Source: Verrucomicrobiota bacterium
Lineage (GTDB): Bacteria > Verrucomicrobiota > Verrucomicrobiia > Opitutales > Opitutaceae
DNA length: 23,167 nucleotides
NCBI GenBank assembly: GCA_030916665.1
Contig: JAUPWC010000072.1
Location: 1-23,167, forward strand
Direction of reading: 5' to 3'
Positions 1 to 13,614 of the stretch are shown here, one piece after another. Both the position numbers and the translations under genes were made by a program. The notes beneath the pieces are model-generated. The model had not been told where the DNA came from, made no database searches, and saw only the letters and a list, made by a program, of their open reading frames with translations. Every line of letters starts with the position of its first letter. The stretch's first letter is position 1.

Positions 1-326
1 CGCACGATCGTATCCACGGTCATCGCCGGATCAATTTTAGTGAGCCACGTGCTGCTGATCAGCACATAAGCCGCCTTCGCGCACGCGCCCAGCGCCGCTC
101 GGGCGGCATCAGCGTCGTAGGCGGTGAAATCCAAAACCAGGTCGAAGCCCGGACGAGCGGGCAAACCGGCCAGCACATCCTGACGTTCCCCGGCCAATAC
201 TTTTGCGCCCGGCGGAGCTCCCTCGGGTCGGCGCGAGCTGACCGTGACGGCATGACCATCGCGCAGCAGGCGCGCCGCAACGGCGCGTCCGGCAAAGCGG
301 GTGCCTCCGAGGAGCAGGATGTTCAT
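1..326 (-). CDS. NAD-dependent epimerase/dehydratase, partial (3' end outside window)
   Basis: The first 108 codons of a Rossmann-fold sugar-nucleotide epimerase/dehydratase are present. The protein begins MNILLLGGTRFAGRAVAARL; the GGTRFAG glycine motif at residues 7-13 is the NAD(P)-binding loop typical of this SDR subfamily. A strand ending in LVLDFTAYD and another reading YVLISSTW follow, as expected for the next Rossmann strands. The catalytic YxxxK would lie beyond the window edge, so activity cannot be judged. The ATG (326-324) lies one base after the TGA of the preceding ATP-grasp/synthase gene, so it is very probably the next gene of the same nonulosonate operon and may modify the sugar. 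The substrate cannot be deduced. Confidence 0.85.
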   Translation of the reverse strand, partial: MNILLLGGTRFAGRAVAARLLRDGHAVTVSSRRPEGAPPGAKVLAGERQDVLAGLPARPGFDLVLDFTAYDADAARAALGACAKAAYVLISSTWLTKIDPAMTVDTIV

Positions 327-327
327 C

Positions 328-2373
328 TCAAGCAGCCGCGGCGGCGGCCAGGCGATCCCACTGCAGGATCTCCTCGGCGGCCACGGAACGGGTCAGCCTG
401 CGGCCGAGCACGTTTTCAAGTTCGCCCGGCGGGATGCCCGAGGCAGGACGGGCAAGATAGACGTCGTCGGCTGTCAGACGATGCCCGGCAGGCAGATCGC
501 GACGGATGATGATGCTCTTGAGGTATTCGCCGCGGTTGCGCAGCTCGCGGGCGGTGGGCGGCAAAAACTCCGCCGGCACCTTCGGTCGACCGAGCGGCGC
601 GGCTCGCAGCGTGGCGATATATTCGGCGAATTCCCCGGGCTGCATCGCGAAGGGATGATCGGGACCGCTCTGTCTGCGATCGAGCGTAATGTGCTTCTCG
701 AACAACACGGCGCCGGCGGCTCGGGCGGCGAGCGCCGCCTCGACGCCCATGGCGTGGTCCGAAAAACCGAAGATCGCGCCGTGGCGTTTCGCGAGGAACG
801 GCAGGTTGCCCAAGCGCAGTTCCTCCGGTTTCGGCGGATAGACCGCACAGCAATGAAAGAAACCTGAGCCCGGTCCGTGCGCCGCGAGGGTTTTCACCGT
901 CGCGTCGATATCCGGCAGCTGACCCATGCCGAAGGACACGAGGATCGGCGCCGGCAGGCGGTTCACCAGGCTGCGCAGGAACGGCAGGTTGTTGTGGTCC
1001 ATGGAGGCGATCTTCACCACGTCGAGACCGATCTGTTCCGCCCAACGAAGCCCATGCGGCCCGTGGATCGTGGCAGAAAAATCCATGCCCAGTTCGTGGC
1101 AGAGATCACGCAGCTCGGGAAACCACTCCTTCGGCGTCTGCAGGTGACGGCCGAACATCTCGCGTGCGGAAATGTCGCCGTAAAGCTTGTCCAGGCCATA
1201 GGCGCTGGCGCGCACCCCCGCGCTGACGATCTCGTCGGGCTCGTAAATCTGGAACTTGGCGCAGTCGCAGCCGGCCGCCGCAATCTCGCGGAGCATGGTG
1301 CGGGCGGTGGCGAGGTCCCGGTTGTGGTTGGTGCCGACCTCGGCCATGATGTAGGGCCGCAGGGCGGCGCCGATCTTGGGCTGACCGCGAACGGAGAGGG
1401 CGGTGGATTCGTTGGGACTCTGGGTGGACATGGCGATGGGTGATTGAAACTCGTTGTGCCAGTGACGGGCTAAGTGCGTGCCGGGAGTAAACGCCGCAGG
1501 GATTGAAGGGTTGCCGTCGTCGGCAAAGAGCGCGAAGGGGTCCACGCCAGCGGCGATCGCGAGGCAGAAGGTCGTGGAGACGCGGGGATTGACCTCGAAG
1601 GGCAGGACCTCGCCTTCAGCGGTGACCATGCACTGGATATTGTAAGGGCCGGTCGGACGAAAAGCTGCTTGGAAAAGGGCTGCGTAGGCGGCGATGCCTT
1701 GATGCAGCTCCGTCGCGGCACGGATGGTGACGCCGCGCTTCGCCTCGACCCGCACGGGCACGACCGCGCGGAGCCGGGCCTGCCGGTCGGCGAGCACAAA
1801 AACGGTGTATTCCTGTCCGGTGACACACTCCTGCGCCACAACTTGTTCCAGGGAGAAGCCCAGCAGTGTAAGGTAAGCCGGCAGCTGCGCCGCATGATCA
1901 AGGCGCATCACACCACGCGATCCGCGACCGGACCGGGGCTTGAGGATAAGCGGAAAGCGCAACTCCGCCGTCTCATTGGCAGGCATGGTTCGCGGGACGC
2001 CGAGACCATGCGCCTGGAGGGCCCGAGCGCAGGCCAGCTTGTCGATCATGGTGCGGACAAAGTCGGCGGAACCAAGAAACACCTCCGGCAATTCTCCCCG
2101 GGCAGCAGCCGCAGCCAGCGGCGGAAGTTCCTCGTCCACGCAGGGCACGACCAGATCAATGCGACGCTCGCGACAGACCCGGCTGAGCACCGACACAAAC
2201 TCCGGAGCTCCGGCCAGGGGGATGGCGACACGTCGGTCGGCGGGAATCACCGGATCGATCGCGTCGGACTGCGCATCGGCAAAATGCAGCTCGTAACGGG
2301 TGTGCAACAACCGCCACAAGGCCTCGTTCCCTGCACCGCCACCGCCGGTGATCAGTAAGCGCTGGGGTTTCAT
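328..2373 (-). CDS. ATP-grasp / NeuB-PseI-type nonulosonate synthase fusion protein
   Basis: A 681-aa two-part enzyme. Residues 1 to about 305 are an ATP-grasp ligase: a Gly-rich start (ITGGGGAGNEAL), a nucleotide lysine loop near K145 (LKPRSGRGSRG) and the metal-binding EVNPR at 260-264, as in carbamoyl-phosphate-synthase-like ligases. Residues from about 335 are a NeuB/PseI-family synthase, which condenses a 6-carbon amino sugar with phosphoenolpyruvate to a 9-carbon acid: YIMAEVGTNH at 341-350, FEKHIT, DHPFAMQPGEF, and a C-terminal SAF (antifreeze-like) domain beginning near SIIIRRDLPAGH. The synthase is divergent (MDHNNLPFL instead of the usual ELTNLPLL). No stop separates the halves. An internal ATG at 1431 could start the synthase alone but has no Shine-Dalgarno. 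The chosen ATG forms an ATGA overlap with the PseG-fusion stop. Which substrate the ligase joins is unknown. Confidence 0.85.
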   Translation of the reverse strand: MKPQRLLITGGGGAGNEALWRLLHTRYELHFADAQSDAIDPVIPADRRVAIPLAGAPEFVSVLSRVCRERRIDLVVPCVDEELPPLAAAAARGELPEVFLGSADFVRTMIDKLACARALQAHGLGVPRTMPANETAELRFPLILKPRSGRGSRGVMRLDHAAQLPAYLTLLGFSLEQVVAQECVTGQEYTVFVLADRQARLRAVVPVRVEAKRGVTIRAATELHQGIAAYAALFQAAFRPTGPYNIQCMVTAEGEVLPFEVNPRVSTTFCLAIAAGVDPFALFADDGNPSIPAAFTPGTHLARHWHNEFQSPIAMSTQSPNESTALSVRGQPKIGAALRPYIMAEVGTNHNRDLATARTMLREIAAAGCDCAKFQIYEPDEIVSAGVRASAYGLDKLYGDISAREMFGRHLQTPKEWFPELRDLCHELGMDFSATIHGPHGLRWAEQIGLDVVKIASMDHNNLPFLRSLVNRLPAPILVSFGMGQLPDIDATVKTLAAHGPGSGFFHCCAVYPPKPEELRLGNLPFLAKRHGAIFGFSDHAMGVEAALAARAAGAVLFEKHITLDRRQSGPDHPFAMQPGEFAEYIATLRAAPLGRPKVPAEFLPPTARELRNRGEYLKSIIIRRDLPAGHRLTADDVYLARPASGIPPGELENVLGRRLTRSVAAEEILQWDRLAAAAAA

Positions 2374-4346
2374 GACGCGGTGATGGCCAACCGGTAGCGC
2401 CGGCCCTGATGTTCGAAGAATGCGGGGTAACGTTCGTTGTCCGCCACGCGCAGTTGGTTGAACTGTTCCGCCAGCGTCCGGGCCGGTTCCAAGCGGCTGT
2501 CCTCGGCGCGCCGACGTGAATAGAAGCTTTCTTCCCCGGACTGCGACCGTGCCTGCGCAACGCAATGCGGGTAGTTCTGCACGAAACTCCGGCAAAGAGC
2601 CAGCGTGGCAGCTGCCTGGCGCTCGCGCAGTTCGGCCACGAGTTCGTCACCGCGCAGCTGGATGAGTTCCTGCGCGTAGATAACCCCGCTGTCCACACGC
2701 TCGACGGCCTCGATCAGCGATACCGGAATCTCGGTTCGCCCCTCCAGCACCTGCCAGGTCAGCGGCGACCAGCCCTTGCCGTGCGGCAGTGCGCTCTCAT
2801 GCACGATGAGGTTGTGCCGGTAACGGGCGCGGATGCCGGCCGGGACCAGCTGTCCGCAGCCGAGGAAGAAACAAAATTCTCCTCCCAGAAGTTCAGCCGG
2901 GTTATGAGCCCATTCGACGCTATGACCCTCGCCCAGCCAACCGAGCACGAGACCGGCTACCGTTTCATTCAGCCAACTAGTGGAGTCCGACAACACGGCC
3001 AGCCGCCGGCCCGAAGATTCCACTGATCCGCGAGCAAGGCCGTCGGGCATCAGGCGGATGTAGCGCCGCTCCGCGGGCAAGGCGGCACGAAATAAGTTGA
3101 GCGCGCCGATCAGCAACCGCGCAGTTGCCGCGGTCGCGCCGTCCGGCTCCAACACCAGCGTTGAAACGGTCAGGCCGTCCTGGTGAGTCCCGAATTCCAG
3201 CTCGGCCACGGGCAGCCCGTCAGCCTGAAGGGTGAAGCGGTGGTTGGACTCATGGCGGATGAAGCAATCCCCGGCTGGCGTGGGCAGCAGACGCTCGGCC
3301 ACCCGCAGCGCGCCAAGGCCGTCAACCAGGCGACACCCGGCTGAAGCCAGATGCCGGCGATTCTCCACCGAACCGAGCAAGGCCTGAAGCTCATCACTGA
3401 GCATTGCCTCGGTAAACTCAGCCAGCGGTCCGAGGTATACGGCGCTGCCATCATGCGCAAGGCTGTGGCAGGCGGTGAGCTGATTGTCCGACACACCGAT
3501 GAGGATCGAGGGCACACCGAGGCAAAGACGCTCCCAGGTGGCACCGCCGCCGGCGCCGATAGCGACATCGGCCTGTAGTAACAGGTCGGCCAGGTGTGGT
3601 CGCCCGGACAGTATCCGCGTGCGACCGCGGCTGGCCGACAGGACTTCGAGCGAGGCGCGGTGCGGGTAGTTGGGACCGATCACCACATCCACGGCCAGTC
3701 CGGCAAACGGTGTTTTCGAGAGCACACGCAACGTCCGGCCCGTGAGATTCTCCTCATCCACGCCGCCAAAGAAAACCAGCACACGCCGCACTTCGCCCGC
3801 TTCCTCCGGTGCTTTCAGCGCCCGTGCGGCGGAATATTCCGGGCGGAGCAAAGCGTAACGCGGCCCAAGCAGCACTTTGCAGCCCGCGGGCAAATGTCCA
3901 TGGGTTGCGCCCAGATTCTGATTGAGAAAGATGTCACATTCGTGCGCGCGGTTGGGCAGGTCATCAATGGCCAGCATCCGGCCGCAATGCGGCCGCAGCG
4001 CGGTCTCCCAAGCATCATCCAACCCGTAATTATCCACGATCAGCCAGTTGGGCTTCTCCGCCCCCAAAGCGGCAATCGTCTCGCGGGCATCCTGCTCCAC
4101 GGACACGCCGCGCCAAACGGCGTAGGCATCGGCGGCCGTTGCAGTCATCTCGGAGCTCGGTGCCGGCAGCAGCGTCACCGGCATCAGCTCGGCGGCGAGC
4201 CGGCCGGCCAAATGACCGTCGTGTGCGCGGGTGATGAAGCGGATCTCGGCCCCGCGCCGACGCAATTCGTGTGCAAGCGTCAGGCACCGCACGACATGGC
4301 CGGTGCCGATCAGCCGGGAGGAATCGCACCGGAAAACAACCTTCAT
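2370..4346 (-). CDS. pseG: PseG-type UDP-sugar hydrolase fused to a formyltransferase domain
   Basis: A 658-aa fusion. Residues 1 to about 355 match PseG, the hydrolase that removes UDP from 2,4-diacetamido-2,4,6-trideoxy-L-altrose in pseudaminic acid synthesis: MKVVFRCDSS start, IGTGHVVRC with His17 (the family's catalytic position), and GAGGGATWERLCLGVPSI at 264-281. Residues about 447-658 resemble methionyl-tRNA/sugar N-formyltransferases: NLIVHESALPHGKGWSPLTW (His516) followed by VDSG (Asp552), the His/Asp of the catalytic triad. Residues about 360-440 are an unassigned linker domain, perhaps a worn-down GNAT (PseH-like) acetyltransferase. The start is certain: AAGGAGG lies 5 nt before the ATG, within the end of the deacetylase gene, and the ATG overlaps that gene's TGA. 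The family usually has about 280-350 residues, so the extension is real. Formylation of the amino sugar is inferred. Confidence 0.88.
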   Translation of the reverse strand: MKVVFRCDSSRLIGTGHVVRCLTLAHELRRRGAEIRFITRAHDGHLAGRLAAELMPVTLLPAPSSEMTATAADAYAVWRGVSVEQDARETIAALGAEKPNWLIVDNYGLDDAWETALRPHCGRMLAIDDLPNRAHECDIFLNQNLGATHGHLPAGCKVLLGPRYALLRPEYSAARALKAPEEAGEVRRVLVFFGGVDEENLTGRTLRVLSKTPFAGLAVDVVIGPNYPHRASLEVLSASRGRTRILSGRPHLADLLLQADVAIGAGGGATWERLCLGVPSILIGVSDNQLTACHSLAHDGSAVYLGPLAEFTEAMLSDELQALLGSVENRRHLASAGCRLVDGLGALRVAERLLPTPAGDCFIRHESNHRFTLQADGLPVAELEFGTHQDGLTVSTLVLEPDGATAATARLLIGALNLFRAALPAERRYIRLMPDGLARGSVESSGRRLAVLSDSTSWLNETVAGLVLGWLGEGHSVEWAHNPAELLGGEFCFFLGCGQLVPAGIRARYRHNLIVHESALPHGKGWSPLTWQVLEGRTEIPVSLIEAVERVDSGVIYAQELIQLRGDELVAELRERQAAATLALCRSFVQNYPHCVAQARSQSGEESFYSRRRAEDSRLEPARTLAEQFNQLRVADNERYPAFFEHQGRRYRLAITAS

Positions 4347-5017
4347 GCGATCCTCCTTCCCAAGATGAATGCCTCGGCGGCCTCGGCGCCGATGGTTGCG
4401 CCGCGCCACCGTGCGAGGTGTTCCACGCCCTGCCGCGAACGCGGATGCGGCCAAGGCCGCAGCTCGACTGCGTAAGCGTCGATCGCGCGCAACTTGCGTT
4501 CGAGCTGCGGCCCGATGTCCACAAACCAGTTGGGGGCAAAAACGGGAGCCGATCCGGGCGGCTGCCATTCCGTGCTGGATGCGACCTCGAAGAAAAGCAG
4601 CGTGCGGACGGACTGACCCGCCTGCGGACGCGTGGCGGCGATCACCGCTTCATGCAGGCGGCGGTGATCGATGTTCACGTCACCGGCGTGGTGCGTATAA
4701 AGTGTATCGGGGTGATGGGCGGCAATCTGCGCCTCGCAAAGCTTCACGATGTCGAGCAGCGGGACCGTATCCAGGCGATTGTCCGGCAGGTCGCCGAACG
4801 AGACCGAACCGACACCTAGTTCCGCCAGCGCGCGGCGTGCGGCATCGCGCCGCGCATCGAAGGCCGTTTGGTCCACCCCGGCCCGCGCGTTCACGCCATC
4901 GGCCAGGAACGCCACGTGAATGATCGCCCCTTCGTCGGCGTGGCGCGCCAGTGCGCCGCCACACCCGAGGACCTCGTCGTCGGGATGAGCGGCAAGCACT
5001 AAGATGCGGGACTTCAA
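4343..5017 (-). CDS. PIG-L/LmbE family zinc-dependent N-deacetylase
   Basis: A 224-aa protein of the PIG-L/LmbE family, which removes acetyl from N-acetylated sugars. The signature HPDDE is at 11-15 (His11 and Asp14 are family zinc ligands, Asp13 the general base). A second motif region reads THHAGDVNIDHRRLHEAV (about 108-125) and supplies the third histidine. Length is normal for the family. There is no ATG at the right place; the likely start is TTG at 5017-5015, whose TTGA overlaps the TGA of the cytidylyltransferase gene by 4 nt, the same coupling as its neighbours. It sits between PseF and the PseG-formyltransferase, so it may deacetylate a nonulosonate intermediate before the free amine is formylated or otherwise acylated. 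That role is inferred from position. Confidence 0.88.
   Translation of the reverse strand: MKSRILVLAAHPDDEVLGCGGALARHADEGAIIHVAFLADGVNARAGVDQTAFDARRDAARRALAELGVGSVSFGDLPDNRLDTVPLLDIVKLCEAQIAAHHPDTLYTHHAGDVNIDHRRLHEAVIAATRPQAGQSVRTLLFFEVASSTEWQPPGSAPVFAPNWFVDIGPQLERKLRAIDAYAVELRPWPHPRSRQGVEHLARWRGATIGAEAAEAFILGRRIA
4352..4358 (-). promoter_or_regulatory. Strong Shine-Dalgarno for the PseG fusion
   Basis: On the minus strand the bases read AAGGAGG, 5 nt before the ATG at 4346. It is the strongest ribosome-binding site I found in this operon, whose other starts mostly rely on stop/start overlap. It fixes the start of the PseG fusion. Confidence 0.8.
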
Positions 5018-5712
5018 GCGACTTGGCGGGAGAGACTGTCGAACATCAGCTCCGCGCGGGTCCAGTCATCGAGATTGTCGATGTCCTGAACGCGCCAACG
5101 CGGAATGATGACGGGATGGGAATGGCGTTCAAAGAAGCGCTTGCCCTCGAGCCAGGCAGCGGGCCGTCCCCAGTAGAACTGGCCGGCGTCGTGCAGTGCC
5201 TTGGGCAGATCCTGGGAGCGGGCGGTGAACTTGTCGGGGAAGAACATTTCCACCCCGCCTTCGGGATGCGGCTGGAAGGAACGGAAGATCGGCGCGGCAA
5301 ACTCCGTGGCCGTGAAGGCGTAGGCCCAAGGGCCGGAAGCCAAAGTCTCGCACCCGCGGCGCAGGTCCGAGATGTGCACGAATGGCGCCGTGGCGTAGAT
5401 ACAGCAAACCGCGTCGTAGGCCCCATGCCGCTCCTGCATCCAGCGGGTGGCATGCGCGATCACCTCGATGGTGCCGGCATGATCGTTGGACAATTCCGGC
5501 GGACGGATGAAAGGGGTCTCGGCGCCGTGGGCACGGGCGATGGCGGCAATCTCCTGGTCGTCGGTCGAGACGATCACATCCGAGAAAAGTCCGCTGGCAC
5601 GCGCCGCGACGATCGAATGGGCGATCATCGGCTTGCCAGCGAAAAGGCGGATATTTTTCCGGGGGATGCGCTTCGAGCCGCCGCGGGCGGGAATGACACA
5701 GAGGTTTTTCAT
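5014..5712 (-). CDS. pseF: CMP-pseudaminic acid cytidylyltransferase (PseF)
   Basis: A 232-aa CMP-nonulosonate synthetase, which activates the 9-carbon sugar with CTP for transfer. It begins MKNLCVIPARGGSKRIPRKN, the family's nucleotide-binding signature, followed by DVIVSTDDQEIA. The stretch FPDKFTARSQDLPKALHDAG with FYWG soon after is typical of PseF rather than of sialic acid NeuA. The ATG at 5712-5710 overlaps the PseC stop as ATGA; an open frame extends upstream, but only this start fits the family. Length is normal. Its presence is the best argument that the pathway product is pseudaminic-type rather than legionaminic or sialic acid. Confidence 0.92.
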   Translation of the reverse strand: MKNLCVIPARGGSKRIPRKNIRLFAGKPMIAHSIVAARASGLFSDVIVSTDDQEIAAIARAHGAETPFIRPPELSNDHAGTIEVIAHATRWMQERHGAYDAVCCIYATAPFVHISDLRRGCETLASGPWAYAFTATEFAAPIFRSFQPHPEGGVEMFFPDKFTARSQDLPKALHDAGQFYWGRPAAWLEGKRFFERHSHPVIIPRWRVQDIDNLDDWTRAELMFDSLSRQVA

Positions 5713-6893
5713 CGGCTGTAGAGGGGAGCTAGGGTCTGGACGGCAGCGATGACGCGGTCCACGTCGGCATCGGTCATGGCGGGAAAAAGCGGCAGGCTGA
5801 GCGCCCGTTGGTAATACGCCTCGGCGGCGGGGCATTTGCCCGGACCGTATCCGTAGGTGCGCCGATACCACGGCTGGAGATGCACGGGGATGTAGTGAAC
5901 CTGCGTGCCAACGCCGGCTTCGCGAAGAGCGCCCATGATCTGGGCACGGGAACGACCCAATGCGCTGAAATCGATTTGCACCGTGTAGAGATGCCAGGAG
6001 GTCGTGGCGGCATCGGCGGCCGCGCGCACAGCGGGCGTTTGCAGCCAATCGAGACCGGAGAAGGCGGCATTGTAGGCCGCGACGATCTCGCGGCGGCGCG
6101 TCAGCACGGCGTCGAGTCGGTCGAGCTGCGAAAGCCCCAGCGCGCACTGCAGATCGGTGAGCCGGTAGTTGAAACCCAGCTCCTGCATCTCGTAGAGCCA
6201 CGGACCGGATTCGGTGGTGAACTCCGTGAAATTATCGGCGACTCGCTCAATGCCATGGGAGCGCAGGCGACGGGCTTGTTCGGCCCAGTCGGCGCGGTCG
6301 GTCACGAGCATGCCGCCCTCGCCCGTTGTCAGCGTCTTGACGGGATGGAAACTGAAAACCGCGAGATCGGCCCACGGATTGCCGCCAATGTTCCAAGCAC
6401 GACCCTCGGCGTGAAAACTCCCGCCGACCGCATGGCAGGCATCCTCGATCACGATCGCGCCGCGCGCACGGGCCACGCGGGCGATCTCCGGCAAGTTGGC
6501 GGCCTGTCCGGCAAAATCCACCGCGATCACGGCGCGGGTGTCGGCGTGCCATTTTTTCTCCATGGCAACCGGATCGAGCGTGTAGCTCACGGGATCGATG
6601 TCGGCAAAGTCCGGCGTGGCGCCGACGTAAGCGGCGCAGTTGGCCGAGGCGAGAAAGGTGTTGGGCGAGGTGACCACGCGGTCACCGGGACCGATGCCGG
6701 CCACCTTCAGTGCCAGATGCAGCGCGGCGGTGGCGTTGTTTACGGCAACGGCGTGCTTCGCACCGACCCGCTCGGCAAAGCGGCGCTCAAATTCGGTGAC
6801 CAGCGGCCCTTGCGTCAGATGGTCCGAACGCAGCGCGGCCACGACGGCGGCGATATCCTGTTCGGTGATGGTCTGGCGTCCGTAGGGCAGCAT
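5709..6893 (-). CDS. pseC: UDP-4-amino-4,6-dideoxy-N-acetyl-L-altrosamine aminotransferase (PseC)
   Basis: A 394-aa PLP-dependent aminotransferase of the DegT/DnrJ/EryC1 (AHBA synthase) fold that converts the PseB 4-keto product to the 4-amino sugar. The start MLPYGRQTIT, then LRSDHLTQGP (21-30), IEDACHAVGG (149-158) and the PLP lysine in FSFHPVKTLTTGEGG (Lys186) are all diagnostic. FNYRLTDLQCALGLSQL near the middle is the family's dimer/active-site segment. An in-frame TTG at 6923 would add 10 residues and nearly touch the PseB stop, but the ATG at 6893 gives the N-terminus seen in family members, so I chose it, 22 nt after the PseB stop. The downstream junction with pseF is an ATGA overlap. 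Confidence 0.93.
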   Translation of the reverse strand: MLPYGRQTITEQDIAAVVAALRSDHLTQGPLVTEFERRFAERVGAKHAVAVNNATAALHLALKVAGIGPGDRVVTSPNTFLASANCAAYVGATPDFADIDPVSYTLDPVAMEKKWHADTRAVIAVDFAGQAANLPEIARVARARGAIVIEDACHAVGGSFHAEGRAWNIGGNPWADLAVFSFHPVKTLTTGEGGMLVTDRADWAEQARRLRSHGIERVADNFTEFTTESGPWLYEMQELGFNYRLTDLQCALGLSQLDRLDAVLTRRREIVAAYNAAFSGLDWLQTPAVRAAADAATTSWHLYTVQIDFSALGRSRAQIMGALREAGVGTQVHYIPVHLQPWYRRTYGYGPGKCPAAEAYYQRALSLPLFPAMTDADVDRVIAAVQTLAPLYSR

Positions 6894-6915
6894 GGTCGCA
6901 TCCGTGCGTGAAGTC

Positions 6916-8013
6916 TCAGGCAACGGTCTTGAGCTCGGTGAAGTGCGGGTGGCGGCTGTCGCGGCCGGGGTCGGCGCGGAGGAACTCGGCGGACTCCACC
7001 TGCTCGGCGATCAGCTCGCGCAGCTCGGTGACGGAGAGGAAGTGCGGGTTCGTGCCGCTGTTGTAACAGAAACCGGCGGGCACGCGGATCGCCTCATGGC
7101 CGGCGGCATACTCGTCCATCGAGTATTCGGCGCCGTTCGGCAGGATCGCGTAGTAGCGGCCGAGATCGACGGTGTTGTAGCTGTCGGAACTGGTGATCAT
7201 CTCCTCGTGGAGCTTCTCGCCCGGGCGCACACCGATGACCGGATGCGGGCACTCGGGAGCGATCGCGTCGGCCACGTCGGTGATGCGGTAGGACGGGATC
7301 TTCGGCACGAGGATCTCGCCGCCCCAGGCGTGCTGGATGCTCCAGAGCACCATGTCCACGCCCTCCTGGAGCGTGATGTTGAAGCGGGTCATCTCCGGGT
7401 CGGTGATTGGGAGCACGCCGGTCTTCCGCTTCTCGAGGAAGAACGGGATGACCGAACCGCGGCTGCCCATGACGTTGCCGTAGCGCACGACGCTCAGGCG
7501 GAGGTCGCGCCCGCCCTTGATGTTGTTGGCGGCGACGAAGAGCTTGTCCGAGCAGAGCTTGGTGGCGCCGTAGAGGTTGATCGGGGCGGCGGCCTTGTCG
7601 GTGGAGAGCGCGACGACGCGGCGGACGCCGCTGTCGAGGCTGGCCTCGATGAGGTTCTGCGCGCCGAGCACGTTGGTCTTGATGCACTCGAAGGGGTTAT
7701 ATTCCGCGGTCGGCACCTGCTTGAGGGCGGCGGCGTGGACGACGATGTCGATGCCCTCCAGGGCGCGGCGCACGCGGCGCTCGTCCCGGACGTCGCCGAT
7801 GAAATAGCGCAGCGCCGGATAGCGGGCCGGCGGGAACTCCTGGGCCATCTCGAACTGCTTCAGCTCGTCGCGCGAGAAGATCACCAGCCGGCGGATCTTC
7901 GGATAACGGGCGAGGACCGTGCGGACAAAGGCCTTGCCGAAGGAACCGGTGCCGCCGGTGAGGAGGATGCTGGCGTGATCGAGGGATTCGAGGGGGCTGT
8001 GGACGGGAGGCAT
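6916..8013 (-). CDS. pseB: UDP-N-acetylglucosamine 4,6-dehydratase (inverting), PseB
   Basis: A 365-aa SDR enzyme that commits UDP-GlcNAc to the pseudaminic pathway by C4 oxidation, C6 dehydration and C5 inversion. It shows the NADP loop LLTGGTGSFGK (17-27), VIFSRDELKQFEM (44-56), HAAALKQVP, the catalytic STDK (137-140; Asp and Lys replace the Asp-Glu pair of retaining dehydratases), and YGATK (148-152). FLEKRKTGVLPITDPEMTRF is the family's substrate-binding segment. The C-terminal extension (YNSGTNPHFLSV) is also usual in PseB. The ATG at 8013 is 16 nt after the stop of the upstream OGT-like gene. It is the first dedicated enzyme of the operon. Confidence 0.95.
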   Translation of the reverse strand: MPPVHSPLESLDHASILLTGGTGSFGKAFVRTVLARYPKIRRLVIFSRDELKQFEMAQEFPPARYPALRYFIGDVRDERRVRRALEGIDIVVHAAALKQVPTAEYNPFECIKTNVLGAQNLIEASLDSGVRRVVALSTDKAAAPINLYGATKLCSDKLFVAANNIKGGRDLRLSVVRYGNVMGSRGSVIPFFLEKRKTGVLPITDPEMTRFNITLQEGVDMVLWSIQHAWGGEILVPKIPSYRITDVADAIAPECPHPVIGVRPGEKLHEEMITSSDSYNTVDLGRYYAILPNGAEYSMDEYAAGHEAIRVPAGFCYNSGTNPHFLSVTELRELIAEQVESAEFLRADPGRDSRHPHFTELKTVA

Positions 8014-8029: not shown

Positions 8030-10240
8030 TTAGGCGGAGAGGGCGGTGGGAGCGGGTTCGGATAGCTTCGCGATCATCGCGCCGGCCTCAGCGCGCAGCT
8101 CGGCATGACCCAGTGACAGGGCGAGATCGGCGAGCAGGTGCCAGGCTTCGACTCCGCGGGGATCGAGCTGCAGGCAGGTCTGAAGGCAATGCACCGCTTC
8201 GGACACTCGGTTGGCTCGGCGCAGGGCGTCGGCGAGGTCGCGCCAGAGCGCGGCGTTTTTCTCGTCGTGCTGGATGGCAGCCAGGAAATAGTCGGAGGCG
8301 CGGGCGGCATCGCCGGCGGCGAGCAGTTCGCAGCCGCGGGCGTGACGATGAGCGGGGGCGGCCACGTCGGCGGCGACCAGCGGGGCTGTTTCGCGCCGGA
8401 AGGCTTCGCGTCCCTTCACGCAAAGGTCATCGTAAGCCTGCTCAAGCAGCCCGCCGAAGGCATCGCTGGCGGCGAGACGGTCGAGGAACAGCGGCGCGCG
8501 CTCCATGGCGACGGAGATGCGAGAGCGGAGTTCGGCGCGGGCGGCCGGTTCGAAGGCCAGCTCCGAGCAAAGCGCGAGATAGGCTTCGTCTTCCTGCACG
8601 ACCAGTTCATCGAGCCCGAGACTGCGCAGCAGGGCGGCGCCGGTGCGGGAACGCAACGTGCCGCCCTCGCAGGTCACGACCGGCAGACCTTGTTCGAGGG
8701 GATCGACGAGGGAGTTGACGCCGGCAAAGGGATGCGTGTCGAGATAGACATCGCCGAGCTTGAGCAGCTCGCCGACATCGGTGCGCGAGGGGAAGCGGAT
8801 GCTGGAGACGATCAGGCGCTCGGAAGCCACGCCGTGGGCCCCGAGCACGCGATCGAACTCCGCGCAGAAGCGCTGGATCACCTGCGGCGGGGATTTTTCC
8901 GTCCTGAAGGGGTGCAGCAGCAGGCGCGCGCCCGGAACCGCGGCCAGCAGACGCACCCACAGCTCGCGCATCTCGGGAGTGATCTTGGAAAAATTGGCGG
9001 CCGAGACGAAGAGCATGGTGTTTTCCGTCAGACCGATATCCGCCCGGGTCCAGGTGCGAGCGGGCGCCTGCCGATCGGTCTCGTGGTTGAAGGCATGCGC
9101 CGGACCGTTCACGAGGGCGAGGCGCTCGGCGAAATGCTCCGGGGCGTCAGCCACTCCGGTCATTGTGCCCGAAAAGAGGAGGTCGATCTCGGGCAGTCCG
9201 GTGGTGACGCAGGAGGAATTGTTCACGACCTGCAGCGGGGCGATCCGGTGCAGCGCGAGGCGGGTGACCCCGTTGCAGACCGCGGTCACGTTGGTGCAGA
9301 AGACCGCGACATCGAGGTCGGCGGCTCGGAGGTTTCTGAGCTGTTCCTCAAGTTTCTCCGGCAGAAGGGTGAAAGCGACAGCGCAACCCCGGGCGTATTT
9401 CTCCAGATTGGTGTCGCCGCTTTGATGTGCGAAGAGCTGCACCTCGAAGCGCGTGGCATCCAGTTCCTCGAACAGCGGCAATGTCGCGCAGGTCCCGGGG
9501 CTGGAATTGAAGTCGCGACTCACAAACCCGACGCGGAGGCGGCGGCCTGCCCGCGAGCGCGGCGCGGCGGCGGCCTTGCGATCGACGGTGCCCCACTCCA
9601 TCAGCAGGCGGCCGCGCAGCTCCATGTGGCGGCGAAGCGAGCCATGGCCAACACAGAGCGGTATGCCGTTGCTCGTGGTGGCGAAGGTGGTGAGCGCGTC
9701 ACGCACGGCCGGAGAACTGCGGCGGGACGACACGAGGCGGTCGAGTTCCTCCAGCCGGCGCAAGGTGTGGGCGGCGTAGGACTCGGCCTCACCGACGGCG
9801 GAGAAATTTTGCGGCGCGTGAAAGAGCCAGGCGGTGTAGGCTGGCCAGAACTCCTCGGGCACGGCGGTCAGTGCCGGGGCCGCGGGCCAGTGCCAGGCAG
9901 GCACCAAGGTCATTGCGGCGAGCAGACCGGCCACACCGCGGGGGGAGAGTTCCGCGGCCAGCTCGATGTCCGCCGCCGCAACCTCGTAGTCCAGCACGCC
10001 GGCAGCAGCTAGCTTGAGCTGAAGTTCGGCGACCAGCCGGGCGACGCTCGCTTCCGTTGACTGGCCGCAATGAGCGGCAGCCTCGCGGGCGACTTCCAGC
10101 CGGGCCGTGTGCAGGGCCTGAGTCTTTTCGACGGACTCCGGCGCATCGAGGTGCGCGGTGAGCGCCGCGAGGCAGGCGTCCACGGACGGCTGAAACGACT
10201 CAAGGGTGGAGGACGAAGCGGAGGGAGAGCGAGGTTTCAC
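8030..10240 (-). CDS. OGT/SPINDLY-like glycosyltransferase with C-terminal TPRs
   Basis: A 736-aa protein. About residues 235-600 match the catalytic half of O-GlcNAc-transferase/SPINDLY family (GT41) proteins: RLRVGFVSRDF, APLQVV, NFSKITPEMRELWVRLLAAVPG (the Lys corresponds to the family's UDP-contacting lysine), VYLDTHPFAGVNSLVDPLEQGLPVVT. The usual TPR superhelix is not at the N-terminus, which is instead an Ala/Glu-rich helical region of unknown kind. Two or three TPR-like repeats occur at the extreme C-terminus (about 625-735: ALWRDLADALRRANRVSEAV, VEAWHLLADLALSLG). The family's GHT histidine is replaced by a TNVT-like segment. The start is GTG at 10240, with GAGGA about 7 nt upstream overlapping the stop of the 160-aa gene. 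It probably transfers the operon's nonulosonate to protein, perhaps flagellin; the acceptor is unproven. Confidence 0.85.
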   Translation of the reverse strand: MKPRSPSASSSTLESFQPSVDACLAALTAHLDAPESVEKTQALHTARLEVAREAAAHCGQSTEASVARLVAELQLKLAAAGVLDYEVAAADIELAAELSPRGVAGLLAAMTLVPAWHWPAAPALTAVPEEFWPAYTAWLFHAPQNFSAVGEAESYAAHTLRRLEELDRLVSSRRSSPAVRDALTTFATTSNGIPLCVGHGSLRRHMELRGRLLMEWGTVDRKAAAAPRSRAGRRLRVGFVSRDFNSSPGTCATLPLFEELDATRFEVQLFAHQSGDTNLEKYARGCAVAFTLLPEKLEEQLRNLRAADLDVAVFCTNVTAVCNGVTRLALHRIAPLQVVNNSSCVTTGLPEIDLLFSGTMTGVADAPEHFAERLALVNGPAHAFNHETDRQAPARTWTRADIGLTENTMLFVSAANFSKITPEMRELWVRLLAAVPGARLLLHPFRTEKSPPQVIQRFCAEFDRVLGAHGVASERLIVSSIRFPSRTDVGELLKLGDVYLDTHPFAGVNSLVDPLEQGLPVVTCEGGTLRSRTGAALLRSLGLDELVVQEDEAYLALCSELAFEPAARAELRSRISVAMERAPLFLDRLAASDAFGGLLEQAYDDLCVKGREAFRRETAPLVAADVAAPAHRHARGCELLAAGDAARASDYFLAAIQHDEKNAALWRDLADALRRANRVSEAVHCLQTCLQLDPRGVEAWHLLADLALSLGHAELRAEAGAMIAKLSEPAPTALSA

Positions 10241-10248
10241 GGATTTCC

Positions 10249-10731
10249 TCAGATGACGCGCGCGTGCGCGGTGGGGTTTTCGGAAGGCCAGACGGTTTCG
10301 ACCAGATTGGCGGCGATGCCGGGAGCGGCGCCGCCGAGCAGGCGGGCGAGCTGGGCCTGGTCGCGCATGAACATCACGCGGTCAAAAACTTCCCCGCCGA
10401 CGTAGCGGAACACCTCGCTCATCTCGGGCTTGTCGCCCGGCCGGTCGGCGAGCAGCAGCACCTTGGTGCCCTTGAACGCGCGGAGATTGACGGGCCGCAC
10501 GCTCCAGCCGGCATCGGCCACACAAACCACGGCATCGGGCGTCTGCGCGGCGGGAATGCGGGAAAGCAGTTGCTCGAGGTCGGTTTCGCCGCTCTCCGTG
10601 CGCATCGAGAGCCAGCGGCCGTCGACCATCTGGGCATCCGGCCATTCGGGGCCGGCCGTGATCTGCTCGTCGCTCAGCTGGAGCAGGCTGTGGTAGATCG
10701 GATGGGAGCCGGTGAGAAGGAGGACGCGCAT
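10249..10731 (-). CDS. Orphan N-terminal domain of a glycosyltransferase-like protein (160 aa)
   Basis: A 160-aa protein starting MRVLLLTGSHPIYHSLLQLS. It carries DEQITAGPEWPDAQ (about 23-36), GRWLSMR, a Leu-rich helix (LEQLLSRIP) and PDAVVCVADAGW, then KVLLLADRPGDKP. The strand/helix order suggests the N-terminal Rossmann-like lobe of a GT-B glycosyltransferase without its C-terminal catalytic lobe; I do not recognise a named family with certainty. The ATG at 10731 is preferred to the in-frame ATG at 10758 because the paralogue at 10984-11259 starts at the same point. Its stop lies 8 nt before the GTG of the OGT-like gene, inside that gene's Shine-Dalgarno, so the two are translationally coupled and may form a two-subunit enzyme. 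Confidence 0.75.
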   Translation of the reverse strand: MRVLLLTGSHPIYHSLLQLSDEQITAGPEWPDAQMVDGRWLSMRTESGETDLEQLLSRIPAAQTPDAVVCVADAGWSVRPVNLRAFKGTKVLLLADRPGDKPEMSEVFRYVGGEVFDRVMFMRDQAQLARLLGGAAPGIAANLVETVWPSENPTAHARVI

Positions 10732-10926
10732 GGGATTAGCATCGTGCTCTTTGCACATGCCGCGCCCGCAGCGGGCCGGTCCCGCGCAAACAACTGTCCG
10801 CTAGTGAATAGAAATATTTTTTCTTGGCCCGACCGCCGACCCGAGACGTCTCTTGCGCCTTCTGTGCGCCCAACAGGCAAAAATTACCCGGCGCGACGGT
10901 CGGACCTGAATGCCGAGAAAACAGAA

Positions 10927-10947
10927 ACGGCGCTCAATGAGCGCCGT
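10927..10947 (-). terminator. Intrinsic terminator after the 91-aa gene
   Basis: A perfect 9-bp stem (ACGGCGCTC / GAGCGCCGT) with a 3-nt loop. On the minus strand it is followed by a T-rich run (TTTCTGTTTTCTC). It lies 37 nt after the stop of the 91-aa gene, separating that gene from the downstream operon, which must then have its own promoter between about 10732 and 10926. I could not identify that promoter with confidence. Confidence 0.8.
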
Positions 10948-10983
10948 CACGACGGTTCAAAAAAAATCTGATACGCTTCAGCC

Positions 10984-11259
10984 TCAGGCGCAGGCCACCA
11001 TGGGCACATCGAAGATCTGGCAGTCAAACGCCACGGCCGAATCACGCAGGTAAATGATCCGGTCGGGCCACTGTTCATCGGGAATCTTCGAGAGCACGAG
11101 ATCGAGGTCATCGATCCCAGTCGGCGCGCGCAGCGAGAGCCAGCGACCTTCTTTATCCTGTGCATCCGGCCAATCGGGGCCGGCGATGATCTGTTCATCG
11201 GCCACTTGGGGGATGTTCAAATGACTGGCCGGGGCGTTGGAAAGGATCAGGGCGCGCAT
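10984..11259 (-). CDS. Small paralogue (91 aa) of the 160-aa orphan domain
   Basis: A 91-aa protein, MRALILSNAPASHLNIPQVA, then DEQIIAGPDWPDAQ, GRWLSLR, LDLVLSKIPDEQWPDRIIYL. It aligns along nearly its whole length with the first 90 residues of the 160-aa protein downstream: DEQIxAGPxWPDAQ, GRWLSxR and LSxIP are shared. The two genes also share the bases AATCCCATGCGCG around the start codon. It ends where the paralogue continues with KVLLLAD, so it is either a truncated duplicate or a stand-alone small domain. It has its own terminator, and a TATAAT box lies about 70 nt upstream. Function unknown. Confidence 0.7.
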   Translation of the reverse strand: MRALILSNAPASHLNIPQVADEQIIAGPDWPDAQDKEGRWLSLRAPTGIDDLDLVLSKIPDEQWPDRIIYLRDSAVAFDCQIFDVPMVACA

Positions 11260-11330
11260 GGGATTGGGCAGTATTCGGCGCTAATAGGCATAACCTGCGC
11301 CCAAAAGAGTCACCCGGATTGCAAGTCTCT

Positions 11331-11336
11331 ATTATA
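11331..11336 (-). promoter_or_regulatory. Candidate sigma-70 -10 box (TATAAT) for the 91-aa gene
   Basis: The minus strand reads TATAAT in an AT-rich island (about 11280-11360) inside otherwise GC-rich DNA, about 70 nt before the ATG of the 91-aa gene. No good -35 box is visible at 16-18 nt, so this is a partial match only. The 187-nt gap between the TPR-OGT gene and the 91-aa gene holds nothing else I can identify. Confidence 0.4.
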
Positions 11337-11446
11337 CAGCGATAAGGGTTTTTATTTATCGACGCTCAAATGCCCGAATACCCTGCCAACGGCCAAGGGC
11401 TTAGGCGTTCAGGCAAATATTACCGCTCCCTCAGCCACTCAACAAA

Positions 11447-13390
11447 TCACGCCACCGCGCGGGCGGGGGTTTGTGACTCACACCAAACGTTCCAGCACTG
11501 GCGAACTGCGGCGGCAAAGCGGGCCGACTGGCCGGGGTGGTCCCCGAGCGGGGAGTTCCGGACCTCATCGCGCAGGCCGGCGCGGATCGCCGCGAGTTTC
11601 GCGGGCTCGGTGGCCAGTTCGATGGCGATGCGCACGTAATCGTCGGGGGTCTGGGCGACCCACTCGCCGCGACCAATGGCTTTGAGCAGGCTGCCGCTGA
11701 CGCGCGCGACGTGACGATCACCCATAAGGGTGACCACGGGCACACCCATCCAGAGGGCTTCGCAGGTGGTCGTGGTGCCGTGGTAGGGAAAGGTGTCGAG
11801 CGAGATGTCCACGCGGCCGTAAAGCGCAAGGTGGTCATCGGTCTTCGCCGTGCGCTCGAGAAATTCGACCCGCTCCACCGGCAGACCGGCGGCGGCGAAA
11901 CGCTCGAAATAACGGCGGCGCACCGGCTCCTCGCCGAATCCCCGGCCCTTCAGCAGCAGTTGCGAACCCGGCACGGCCGCAAGCACACGGGCCCAGAGCC
12001 TGAGGGTGTCGTCGGTGATCTTGGCGACGTTGTTGAAACAGCCAAAGGTAACCGGACCAAAGTTCGTATTACGAACTTTGGACTGGTTGTGTCCGTCAGA
12101 CGGGGTGGCATGAAAGTTCGTATTACGAACATTGACCTCGGGGGTGACGGGCGGGGGCTGGTAGGCCCAGGCGGTCGGGGCGAAACGCACGAGCTTCTCC
12201 GTGGCGAGGGCGTCGGCGTCGCCGACGGGATCGACGGTAGCGTCGGTGAACCGGTAGTGCATCGCGGACAGACCGGTGGTGTTGGGATAGCCGAGATAGT
12301 TCACCTGAACGGGCGCGAGGTGGCGCGCGAAAAGCGGCAGCCGCGAGGTCATGCCGGTGTGGCCGGCAAGGTCCACGATGATGTCGGGGGCATCGGCCCG
12401 GATGACCTTCTCGACGGCCGCCTCGGGCTGGCCGACGAAATTGCGCCAGACGGTGGCAAGTTCCTTGAAGCGGGCCGAGACGGCATCCTCGCGGAAGTGA
12501 TCGTGGTAGAGATAGAGTTCAAACTGCGTCGGATCGAGATGCCGCAGGAGCGGCTCAAGAAACCAGGCGCAGGAGTGGGAGCGCAAATCGGGCGAGAGGA
12601 TGGCCAGCCTCAGACGCCGCTCCGGCACCGGATGGTTGGGGAAGAGCGGCCGCGGGTGCTGACCGGCAGCTTTGCCGTAGGTGGCGTGTTCGGCGAAGAG
12701 CTCCTCGCGGGGCAGGTCGGCGAGATGGTTGAGGGCGTAGAGCCGGTAGCTGCGGGCCTCGAGGTTGGAGGGCTCCAGTTCGAGGAAGCGGTCGTAGGCG
12801 GCAATGGCCTCGGAAATCCGGTGCATCTGTTGCAGCGCCTGGGCGCGGCCGTAGTGGGCCTTGGCGTAGTTCGGATCAACCGCGATGGCGCGCTCGTGGC
12901 AGGCCAACGCTTCGGTTTGGCGTCCGGCGAGACTGAGCGTAAGCCCGAAGTTGTAGAGTCCCTTGAGAAAGGCCGGCTGCAAAGCGATCGCCTTCTGATG
13001 GCACTCGATCGCCGCAGAAAGCCGGTCGAGCACTTTCAGGCAGTGCGCAAGCCCGTCCCACGCATCGGCTGATTTCGGATCGAGCGCGACCGCGGCACGG
13101 AAAGGAGGTTCGGCCTCGGCCGCACGACCGGCGGCGATGAGCGCGAGCCCAAGTCGCAGAGCGCAGGAGGCGTTCTGGGGCCCGAGGCGATGGGCCCTGG
13201 CGAGCAGTTCGACCGCCTCGGCGGTCCGGCCGCGCTGGAGCGCCACGATGCCGGAAAGATGCACGGCATCAAAGTGGTTGGGCAGCGCGGCCCGCACCCG
13301 GCGGTAAAGCGACTCCGCCTGATCCAGCCGGCCGGCACGGTGATGCACGACGGCATCCTGCAGCAGGCGTTGGTATTGGGCGTGTGACAT
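11447..13390 (-). CDS. TPR-containing O-GlcNAc transferase/SPINDLY-family glycosyltransferase
   Basis: A 647-aa protein of classical bacterial OGT layout. About six tetratricopeptide repeats fill residues 1-250 (for example QYQRLLQDAVVHHRAGRLDQ, YAKAHYGRAQALQQMHRISE). The GT41 catalytic region follows: RRLRLAILSPDLRSHSCAWF, IIVDLAGHTGMTSRLPLFAR with the GHT histidine, APVQVNYLGYPNTTGL, FGCFNNVAKITDDTLRLWAR (UDP-contacting Lys), and YHGTTTTCEALWMGVPVVTL. The frame is open upstream to 13609, but only the ATG at 13390 starts a TPR-like sequence. Residues about 420-445 hold an unusual insertion made of two palindromic DNA elements. A sigma-28-like promoter lies about 60 nt upstream. Proteins of this type glycosylate flagellins in several bacteria; that role is inferred here from the adjacent Pse genes. 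Confidence 0.92.
   Translation of the reverse strand: MSHAQYQRLLQDAVVHHRAGRLDQAESLYRRVRAALPNHFDAVHLSGIVALQRGRTAEAVELLARAHRLGPQNASCALRLGLALIAAGRAAEAEPPFRAAVALDPKSADAWDGLAHCLKVLDRLSAAIECHQKAIALQPAFLKGLYNFGLTLSLAGRQTEALACHERAIAVDPNYAKAHYGRAQALQQMHRISEAIAAYDRFLELEPSNLEARSYRLYALNHLADLPREELFAEHATYGKAAGQHPRPLFPNHPVPERRLRLAILSPDLRSHSCAWFLEPLLRHLDPTQFELYLYHDHFREDAVSARFKELATVWRNFVGQPEAAVEKVIRADAPDIIVDLAGHTGMTSRLPLFARHLAPVQVNYLGYPNTTGLSAMHYRFTDATVDPVGDADALATEKLVRFAPTAWAYQPPPVTPEVNVRNTNFHATPSDGHNQSKVRNTNFGPVTFGCFNNVAKITDDTLRLWARVLAAVPGSQLLLKGRGFGEEPVRRRYFERFAAAGLPVERVEFLERTAKTDDHLALYGRVDISLDTFPYHGTTTTCEALWMGVPVVTLMGDRHVARVSGSLLKAIGRGEWVAQTPDDYVRIAIELATEPAKLAAIRAGLRDEVRNSPLGDHPGQSARFAAAVRQCWNVWCESQTPARAVA
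12057..12081. repeat. Perfect 12-bp-arm palindromic element inside the TPR-OGT gene (copy 1)
   Basis: The left arm ccaaagttcgta is the exact reverse complement of the right arm, with one central base (25 nt in all). It shares the core GTTCGTATTACGAAC with a second copy 54 nt away. On the coding strand it is read in frame as KVRNTNF (residues 438-444). Confidence 0.9.
12113..12133. repeat. Second copy of the palindromic element inside the TPR-OGT gene (copy 2)
   Basis: It has the same 15-nt core GTTCGTATTACGAAC, with one flank position no longer complementary. It is spaced 54 nt (18 codons) from copy 1, so the frame is preserved. It is translated as NVRNTNF (residues 420-426). I noticed no other copy of the core in this window. 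Confidence 0.9.
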
Positions 13391-13445
13391 CCGGTGAAAC
13401 GCAAACGCCCGCCACCACGATGGGAGACGGAGATTCGCAGCCGTC

Positions 13446-13473
13446 CCATCGGCACACCATGCGGGTGACTTGA
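13446..13473 (-). promoter_or_regulatory. Candidate sigma-28 (FliA) promoter for the TPR-OGT gene
   Basis: The minus strand reads TCAAG, 15 nt, GCCGATGG, close to the flagellar sigma-28 consensus TAAAG-N14-GCCGATAA. It lies about 55 nt before the ATG at 13390, a sensible leader length. The spacer is one base longer than the standard. Confidence 0.5.
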
Positions 13474-13527
13474 GGGCAAAACCATGCGAGACCCGGCCGT
13501 TACGGTAAAATTGCGCAGGAAATGCGC

Positions 13528-13554
13528 TCAAGATCGTGCGGCGCGGGACGTTGA
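13528..13554 (+). promoter_or_regulatory. Weak sigma-28-like candidate upstream of the first HDOD gene
   Basis: TCAAG, 14 nt, GACGTTGA lies 60 nt before the ATG at 13615. The -35 half and spacing fit, but the -10 half matches only 5 of 8 positions. It sits back to back with the minus-strand candidate at 13446-13473 in the divergent intergenic region. Confidence 0.25.
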
Positions 13555-13614
13555 AAACGCAGTCACAGCGGCCACCGGCAAACCACTCCGGGCGCGATTT
13601 CCGTTTCACACCTC

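Follow-up and report, generated by a model that had tools for sequence, protein, structure and literature searches.

A fused ATP-grasp ligase and NeuB/PseI-type synthase in a verrucomicrobial pseudaminic acid operon, with a possible role in acyl exchange

One gene on a contig of the Opitutaceae (Verrucomicrobiota) joins an ATP-grasp ligase to a NeuB/PseI-type synthase, and on balance we favour the view that its product is a single enzyme with two activities in a variant of the pseudaminic acid (Pse) pathway, in which PIG-L deacetylation would be followed by re-acylation by the ATP-grasp half and by condensation with PEP. The gene lies in a stretch of 23,167 nucleotides (the window) and occupies 328..2373 on the minus strand as a single open frame of 681 residues, with its ATG at 2373, its stop at 328-330 and zero internal stops. 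A sequence-only reading of the window had described a stop-free frame joining the two enzymes; this observation is confirmed, and G017, a second genome of the genus, and the public proteins P0001 and P0002 all carry the same fusion with an unbroken frame. The ligase half (residues 1-307; 1453..2373) is followed by a variable linker (residues 308-333; 1375..1452) that includes Met315 (1429-1431), by the synthase barrel (538..1374; PF03102, residues 361-591, E 4e-52) and by a SAF domain (349..516; PF08666, residues 620-675, E 2.2e-11), all on the minus strand. The synthase and SAF matches are both above the Pfam cut-off, giving the architecture of a NeuB/PseI-type PEP-dependent synthase. The ligase half matches ATP-grasp_3 (residues 111-268) and ATPgrasp_Ter (residues 176-283), and its domain is complete in a structure model with a pLDDT of 95, so the earlier impression of a complete ligase followed by a complete synthase with SAF is borne out. 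The fold of the model, compared with VIA-align, and the presence of the conserved Lys, Glu and Asn residues place this half in the ATP-grasp superfamily. Its relation to the "carbamoyl phosphate synthase-like" proteins of PRK12767 is more distant, with a best score of 123.1 bits against an NCBIfam cut-off of 218. Unlike ATP-grasp proteins of that type, one of which has a solved structure (2pn1) whose title gives no tested function, the window ligase falls below the NCBIfam cut-offs and has a family-specific C-terminal R-x-W-x-N signature of its own.

The synthase half is an active-looking member of the NeuB/PseI family. When 14 active-site and metal positions (Neisseria meningitidis numbering) were mapped by hand onto an alignment with N. 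meningitidis NeuB, 12 were unchanged. The other two, E134 (here D459) and N184 (here A510), also vary among 85 other NeuBs: D stands at the first site in 21 of the 85 and N at the second in just one. The half was said earlier to diverge at normally conserved motifs, which does not hold for the catalytic residues; it is the protein as a whole that is divergent, scoring 180.3 bits in the PseI equivalog test (TIGR03586; cut-off 340.25) and 214.1 bits in the NeuB_NnaB test (TIGR03569; cut-off 399.65), and it is not classed here as PseI proper. The window synthase thus shares with known NeuB/PseI/SpsE enzymes (PF03102 with PF08666; solved structures 1vli, 1xuu and 8h2c) their domain order and the 12 active-site residues, and it too stands in a PseB-PseC-PseG-PseF operon, but it differs from them in being fused to a ligase, in lying below both curated cut-offs and in its deep position in the tree. 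In a tree of 96 synthases, the window type forms a clade of eight rows (the window, G017, P0001, L055, L023, P0003, P0004 and P0005) on a long, fully supported branch, and ligase-linked synthases occur in three places, a distribution that a label test finds compatible with a single origin. The statement that NeuB/PseI enzymes normally stand alone proved overstated. The same phylum has two further NeuB fusions, one of CBS, NeuB, SAF and TIM-barrel domains (L161:9272-11524, 751 aa) and one of cytidylyltransferase, NeuB and SAF (L154:9483-11201, 573 aa), and a report on Leptospira describes a NeuB-phosphatase fusion (PMC3438082). The Leptospira protein likewise combines a nonulosonic acid synthase with another pathway step, its partner being a C-terminal phosphatase rather than an N-terminal ligase.

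The genes upstream of the fusion, on the same strand and adjacent or overlapping, make up a Pse pathway operon that includes a formyltransferase and a PIG-L protein. They encode a PseG hydrolase fused to a formyltransferase (2370..4346; TIGR03590, 273.8 bits; PF00551), a PIG-L family de-N-acetylase (4343..5017; PF02585, E 3.2e-23), the CMP-pseudaminic acid synthetase PseF (5014..5745; TIGR03584, 306 bits), the aminotransferase PseC (5709..6923; TIGR03588, 472 bits) and the dehydratase PseB (6916..8013; TIGR03589, 513 bits), all on the minus strand, with all four Pse enzymes above their NCBIfam equivalog cut-offs. A search for the N-acetyltransferase PseH with a model from 17 sequences found no GNAT in the window at a domain E<1e-3; the formyltransferase is present instead. 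The segment between PseG and the formyltransferase is weakly GNAT-like, in a profile match that includes the shared PseG tail and in which the window's own segment scores below 0 bits, and it may be a decayed PseH. Downstream of the fusion lies the start of an SDR/epimerase-like gene (1..326, minus strand; PF01370, E 1.5e-4), the rest of which is lost at the contig end. In G017 the gene next after the SDR gene encodes an inositol-monophosphatase-like (IMPase) protein, and the corresponding phosphatases of L021, G522 and G547 score best against CysQ, below the CysQ cut-off. On its other side, the operon adjoins two GT41-like glycosyltransferase genes (8030-10240 and 11447-13609, both minus strand), with TPR repeats C-terminal in one product and N-terminal in the other. 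The Caulobacter protein FlmG, which combines TPR and glycosyltransferase domains, modifies flagellin with Pse (PMC7591256), and by analogy the two window proteins are candidate Pse transferases. Between their genes lie two related orphan frames (10249-10758 and 10984-11259, minus strand; 45% identity over 75 residues); a search with the longer one found 21 proteins, including the window's own, and 0 of these carry a precomputed Pfam domain.

How might the fused gene have arisen? A search for the fusion and for adjacent gene pairs in other genomes, which the earlier reading had proposed, found both. In a set of 57 genomes close to that of the window, of which 21 belong to its genus, full-length matches occur in two, the window's own and G017, where the frame has an identical length of 681 residues and 86% identity; P0001 and P0002 are also of 681 aa, with the same architecture and 87% and 86% identity, respectively. 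In a Verrucomicrobia record of the same family and a related genus (L021, which is G335), the ligase and synthase are separate genes with a 4-base ATGA stop/start overlap, and in Sulfuritalea (L023) they are separate adjoining genes. Because the related genus and Sulfuritalea keep them as separate neighbours, the fusion looks like a local, genus-level variant, and the overlap in L021 suggests that the fused gene was probably born from a small frame-changing indel at an ATGA-type overlap. Both halves have evolved under purifying selection between the window and G017 (dN 0.14 / dS 1.15 in the ATP-grasp half; dN 0.03 / dS 0.69 in the synthase half), and residues 284-334 drift (63% amino acid identity; dN 0.27 / dS 0.40).

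These comparisons also bear on whether there is one fused product at all. The window belongs to a fragmented assembly (698 contigs, 85% complete), in which two genes might be fused by an assembly or sequencing error, but the recurrence of the frame in G017, an assembly of 2 contigs that is 100% complete, and in two further proteins leaves that explanation a negligible chance. A real open frame might still give two proteins if translation began also, or only, at the internal Met at 1431 (residue 315). This Met is kept in all four fused sequences, within an otherwise fast-changing linker, and its position is that of the start of the unfused L021 synthase, and Met315 is likely to be the ancestral synthase start. 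The observation that 1431 is preceded by no Shine-Dalgarno sequence, which had been offered as an argument for a fused product, is correct and can be set against internal initiation. As an argument it carries no weight, because the ATP-grasp start lacks one as well; among the eight starts inspected (1431 included) only that of PseG has one, so that starts of this kind are usual in the operon. Against a second product, the stop that a coupled restart needs is gone, and the frame has stayed open and of constant length in four diverged sequences. We consider two proteins quite improbable, and a single fused protein, as originally supposed, the likely translation product.

Close relatives of the ligase, defined by E<=1e-50 except for G017, which entered through the fusion itself, are rare and patchy in the samples searched. 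They were found in eight genomes (G000, G017, G335, G058, G373, G426, G522 and G547). In one of the searches behind this list and in the class and phylum samples, many genomes had just a fraction of their first-look candidates scored, and some relatives may have been missed; close relatives occur in 3 of 369 genomes of the class of G426, in 1 of 398 of its phylum (the sole match being the centre genome) and in 0 of 247 of the phylum of G425; at the family level they occur in 1 of 2 genomes for G522, 1 of 71 for G426 and 1 of 71 for the window, each match again being the centre genome. Plasmid records gave just two weak matches to the ligase, with 26.0% and 25.5% identity. Elsewhere the ligase is joined to a GNAT (P0006, P0008, P0009 and P0092, and P0014, in part and by eye), to a formyltransferase (P0007 and P0010), to PseG and a formyltransferase (P0011 and P0013, with PseG recognised by eye) or, in P0012, to a methyltransferase; partner domains were scanned in P0006, P0007, P0011 and P0012 and taken from precomputed Pfam matches in the others. 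In a search with the ligase half alone, whose length limit leaves out the 681-residue fusions, such fusions make up 6 of the 120 matches listed among 391 found. The partners other than the methyltransferase all act between PseC and PseF, which suggests that the ligase works in this part of the pathway too. On a Lokiarchaeal contig (L024:8040-13499), NeuB, ATP-grasp, formyltransferase, PIG-L and PseG genes lie inside 6 kb. The islands of G017 (C2, L026) and L023 share a similar extra run of genes, identified mostly by eye (methyltransferase, MocA oxidoreductase, DegT aminotransferase, GNAT and a WbuX-like start), which suggests that a whole glycosylation island was transferred between the verrucomicrobial and betaproteobacterial lineages of G017 and L023.

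The close ligase keeps a characteristic company. It shares a contig with NeuB in 7 of the 8 genomes, and PIG-L is present in all seven loci; in the eighth, G058, the ligase is on contig C48, and NeuB, two PIG-L-like genes and an IMPase gene are on C61. For comparison, we assembled 80 NeuB loci (60 from the top of the NeuB list, 15 from further down it and five from the fusion search), of which 72 span at least 9 kb, and searched them using phmmer with a handful of queries; some of them overlap or share a genome. PIG-L was found in 4 and IMPase in 1 of the 72. Removing L132, which belongs to G058, a genome whose close ligase is on another contig, leaves 71 controls, so that PIG-L occurs in 7/7 loci with close ligase and NeuB against 3/71 other NeuB loci (Fisher p 5e-8, the loci not being independent), or, within the phylum and with the two same-genus genomes counted once, in 3/3 against 3/71 (p 3e-4). 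IMPase is present in 6/6 close-ligase loci where the contig reaches far enough (G017, G335, G373, G426, G522 and G547) against 0/71, and in each of the six it adjoins an SDR-type gene, identified by eye in G373 and G547. Three of the seven ligase loci come from outside the window's phylum sample, and all close-ligase loci were found through the ligase or the fusion itself. Within the 72 control loci alone, PIG-L accompanies none of the five ATP-grasp loci, all of which encode distant ATP-grasp proteins; the association of ligase and PIG-L is limited to the close subfamily.

Counting the acylating enzymes extends this picture. We counted them in 33 loci: nine with the ligase of interest (including the Lokiarchaeal locus and one half of G058), 23 controls, and L059, included since both fusion halves matched it weakly. 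Of the 24 loci without this ligase, 22 have no PIG-L; among these, a single acylator, either a PseH-like GNAT or a formyltransferase, is present in 13, one of which (L118) is just 4.6 kb long, and no locus has two. In four PIG-L-less loci (L059, L170, L149 and, by eye, L174) the sole acylator candidate is an ATP-grasp protein of another subfamily, and five of the 24 Pse-like loci (L152, L163, L182, L184 and L185) show zero acylators with the queries used, which counts against an acyl-exchange reading. The two PIG-L-bearing loci without the ligase, L126 and L130, both have two acylators, and L146, which is not among the 33, combines PIG-L with two formyltransferases. Six of the nine ligase loci (window, G017, L055, L057, L023 and L074) have a formyltransferase together with the ligase in the pathway operon, G017 having a further GNAT in a neighbouring operon, and L075 and L056, the ligase half of G058, have a GNAT and the ligase. 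The Lokiarchaeal locus, with PIG-L, formyltransferase, ligase, two GNAT-like genes and no IMPase, breaks the pattern of exactly two. These counts suggest that PIG-L frees a second amine, with the ligase among the enzymes that fill it. Because the ligase is paired with either an acetyl- or a formyltransferase, it is no simple replacement of one of them, and its site is probably the other nitrogen.

We therefore favour the following scheme. PseB and PseC would convert UDP-GlcNAc into the 4-amino sugar, and the formyltransferase fused to PseG would formylate the 4-amine in place of PseH. PIG-L would then strip the GlcNAc-derived acetyl group from the other nitrogen, which is N2 in the hexose and becomes N5 in the nonulosonic acid. 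Activating a carboxylic acid as an acyl phosphate, the ATP-grasp half would couple it to the amine so freed; condensation of the re-acylated hexose with PEP by the synthase half and activation of the product with CMP by PseF would follow. The gene context leads us to regard the ligase as a carboxylate-amine ligase acting on a sugar amine by ATP-dependent amide formation; we infer that it acylates, which nitrogen it uses, in what order the steps run and that one half hands over to the other. Our guess for the acid is a hydroxy acid such as glycerate, with the SDR and the phosphatase helping to make it; these two genes and the TylF-like methyltransferases near the ligase in G522 (by Pfam) and G373 (by eye) would suit such an acid. 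Against the scheme, amidino-forming genes of the WbuX/HisF2 type, which could use the same nitrogen as that proposed for the ligase, are found in the G522 locus and, by eye, near the G017 and L023 loci.

Two other assignments have to be weighed against this scheme. PIG-L might free an amine for the formyltransferase, and the ligase might have some other target: the 4-amine, where it would stand in for PseH, the carboxylate or a second sugar. PIG-L does stand beside a formyltransferase without a close ATP-grasp in three loci, as a neighbour in L126 and L146 and within one protein in L130, and the distant ATP-grasp is the sole acylator candidate in the four PIG-L-less loci named above. Against this, G547 and G058 (the latter over two contigs) have the ligase, PIG-L and a PseG-GNAT protein and yielded no formyltransferase, and among the loci compared IMPase and PIG-L occur together only in genomes that encode the close ligase; we thus regard the assignment as unlikely. 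(The L130 protein, 695 aa at 10435-12519 in a Pse locus, has no Pfam match in its first ~225 residues.) Somewhat less unlikely is that the ligase acylates the freed amine with an amino acid or another acid, and that SDR and IMPase belong to another branch. ATP-grasp proteins of the same fold include the amino-acid ligases PylC and D-Ala-D-Ala ligase, yet a separate branch fits poorly with the presence of SDR and IMPase beside the ligase in all six visible loci and with the lack of IMPase in the 71 other NeuB loci, controls in which IMPase was counted and SDR was not. The predicted re-acylation of the PIG-L-freed amine by the ligase, which the sequence-only reading had suggested, is strengthened by gene association, acylator counts and the other ligase fusions, and the supporting arguments from the Shine-Dalgarno sequence and the catalytic motifs fall away.

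Several known systems offer parallels. Shewanella oneidensis mutants that lack the ATP-grasp gene sfmE show a pronounced drop in apparent flagellin mass, slightly less than that for the other four operon genes, and the 274-Da flagellin sugar carries a single acetyl group and probably a basic amine (PMC3765264). SfmE (SO_3265) resembles the window ligase in its gene context, an operon for flagellin modification that also includes a NeuB-domain gene (PMC3765264); it differs in being a standalone protein of 412 aa whose operon adds a TPP enzyme, a reductase and a methyltransferase. A flagellin-modification locus of Clostridium difficile also has an ATP-grasp gene (PMC5207246), and this gene of RT027, CDR20291_0245, unlike that of the window, belongs to PF13535 and to a peptidylamido-glycan system for which the available text describes no NeuB partner. 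For Campylobacter jejuni, the proposal is that Cj1295 cleaves the acetamido group at C5 and that a methylglyceroyl group can then take its place (PMC3068675). The resulting Pse with a 5-(2,3-di-O-methylglyceroyl)amino group matches our proposal in the exchange of the C5 acetyl for another acyl group, but Cj1295 has an aminopeptidase-like domain rather than PIG-L, and the available text names no ATP-grasp protein (PMC3068675). By analogy, these three precedents would fit the proposed mechanism. For the C7 glyceroyl group of Tannerella forsythia Pse, a candidate gene was said in 2018 to remain 'elusive' (PMC6120980). Our search of the open-licence literature, which says little on print generally, found no description of this fusion or of this ligase subfamily in a Pse pathway.

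Bacterial sialic-acid-like sugars vary widely at their two nitrogens, and the enzymes for the rarer groups are poorly known. A gene set that predicts both the nitrogen exchanged and the kind of enzyme involved can be tested with a single protein in which the ligase is joined to the enzyme of the following step. As a more general and more tentative proposal, which we think possible rather than probable, PIG-L, SDR, the CysQ/IMPase-like phosphatase and ATP-grasp may form a transferable acyl-exchange module for nonulosonic acids, one that would remove the GlcNAc-derived acetyl group and add another acyl group without acyl-CoA or acyl-ACP. Such a module would have been joined to several synthase lineages, and in this genus its last step would have been fused to a synthase of a separate clade, specific for the exchanged sugar. 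This wider point, a predicted Pse acyl-exchange module, would be a more useful result than a genus-level fusion.
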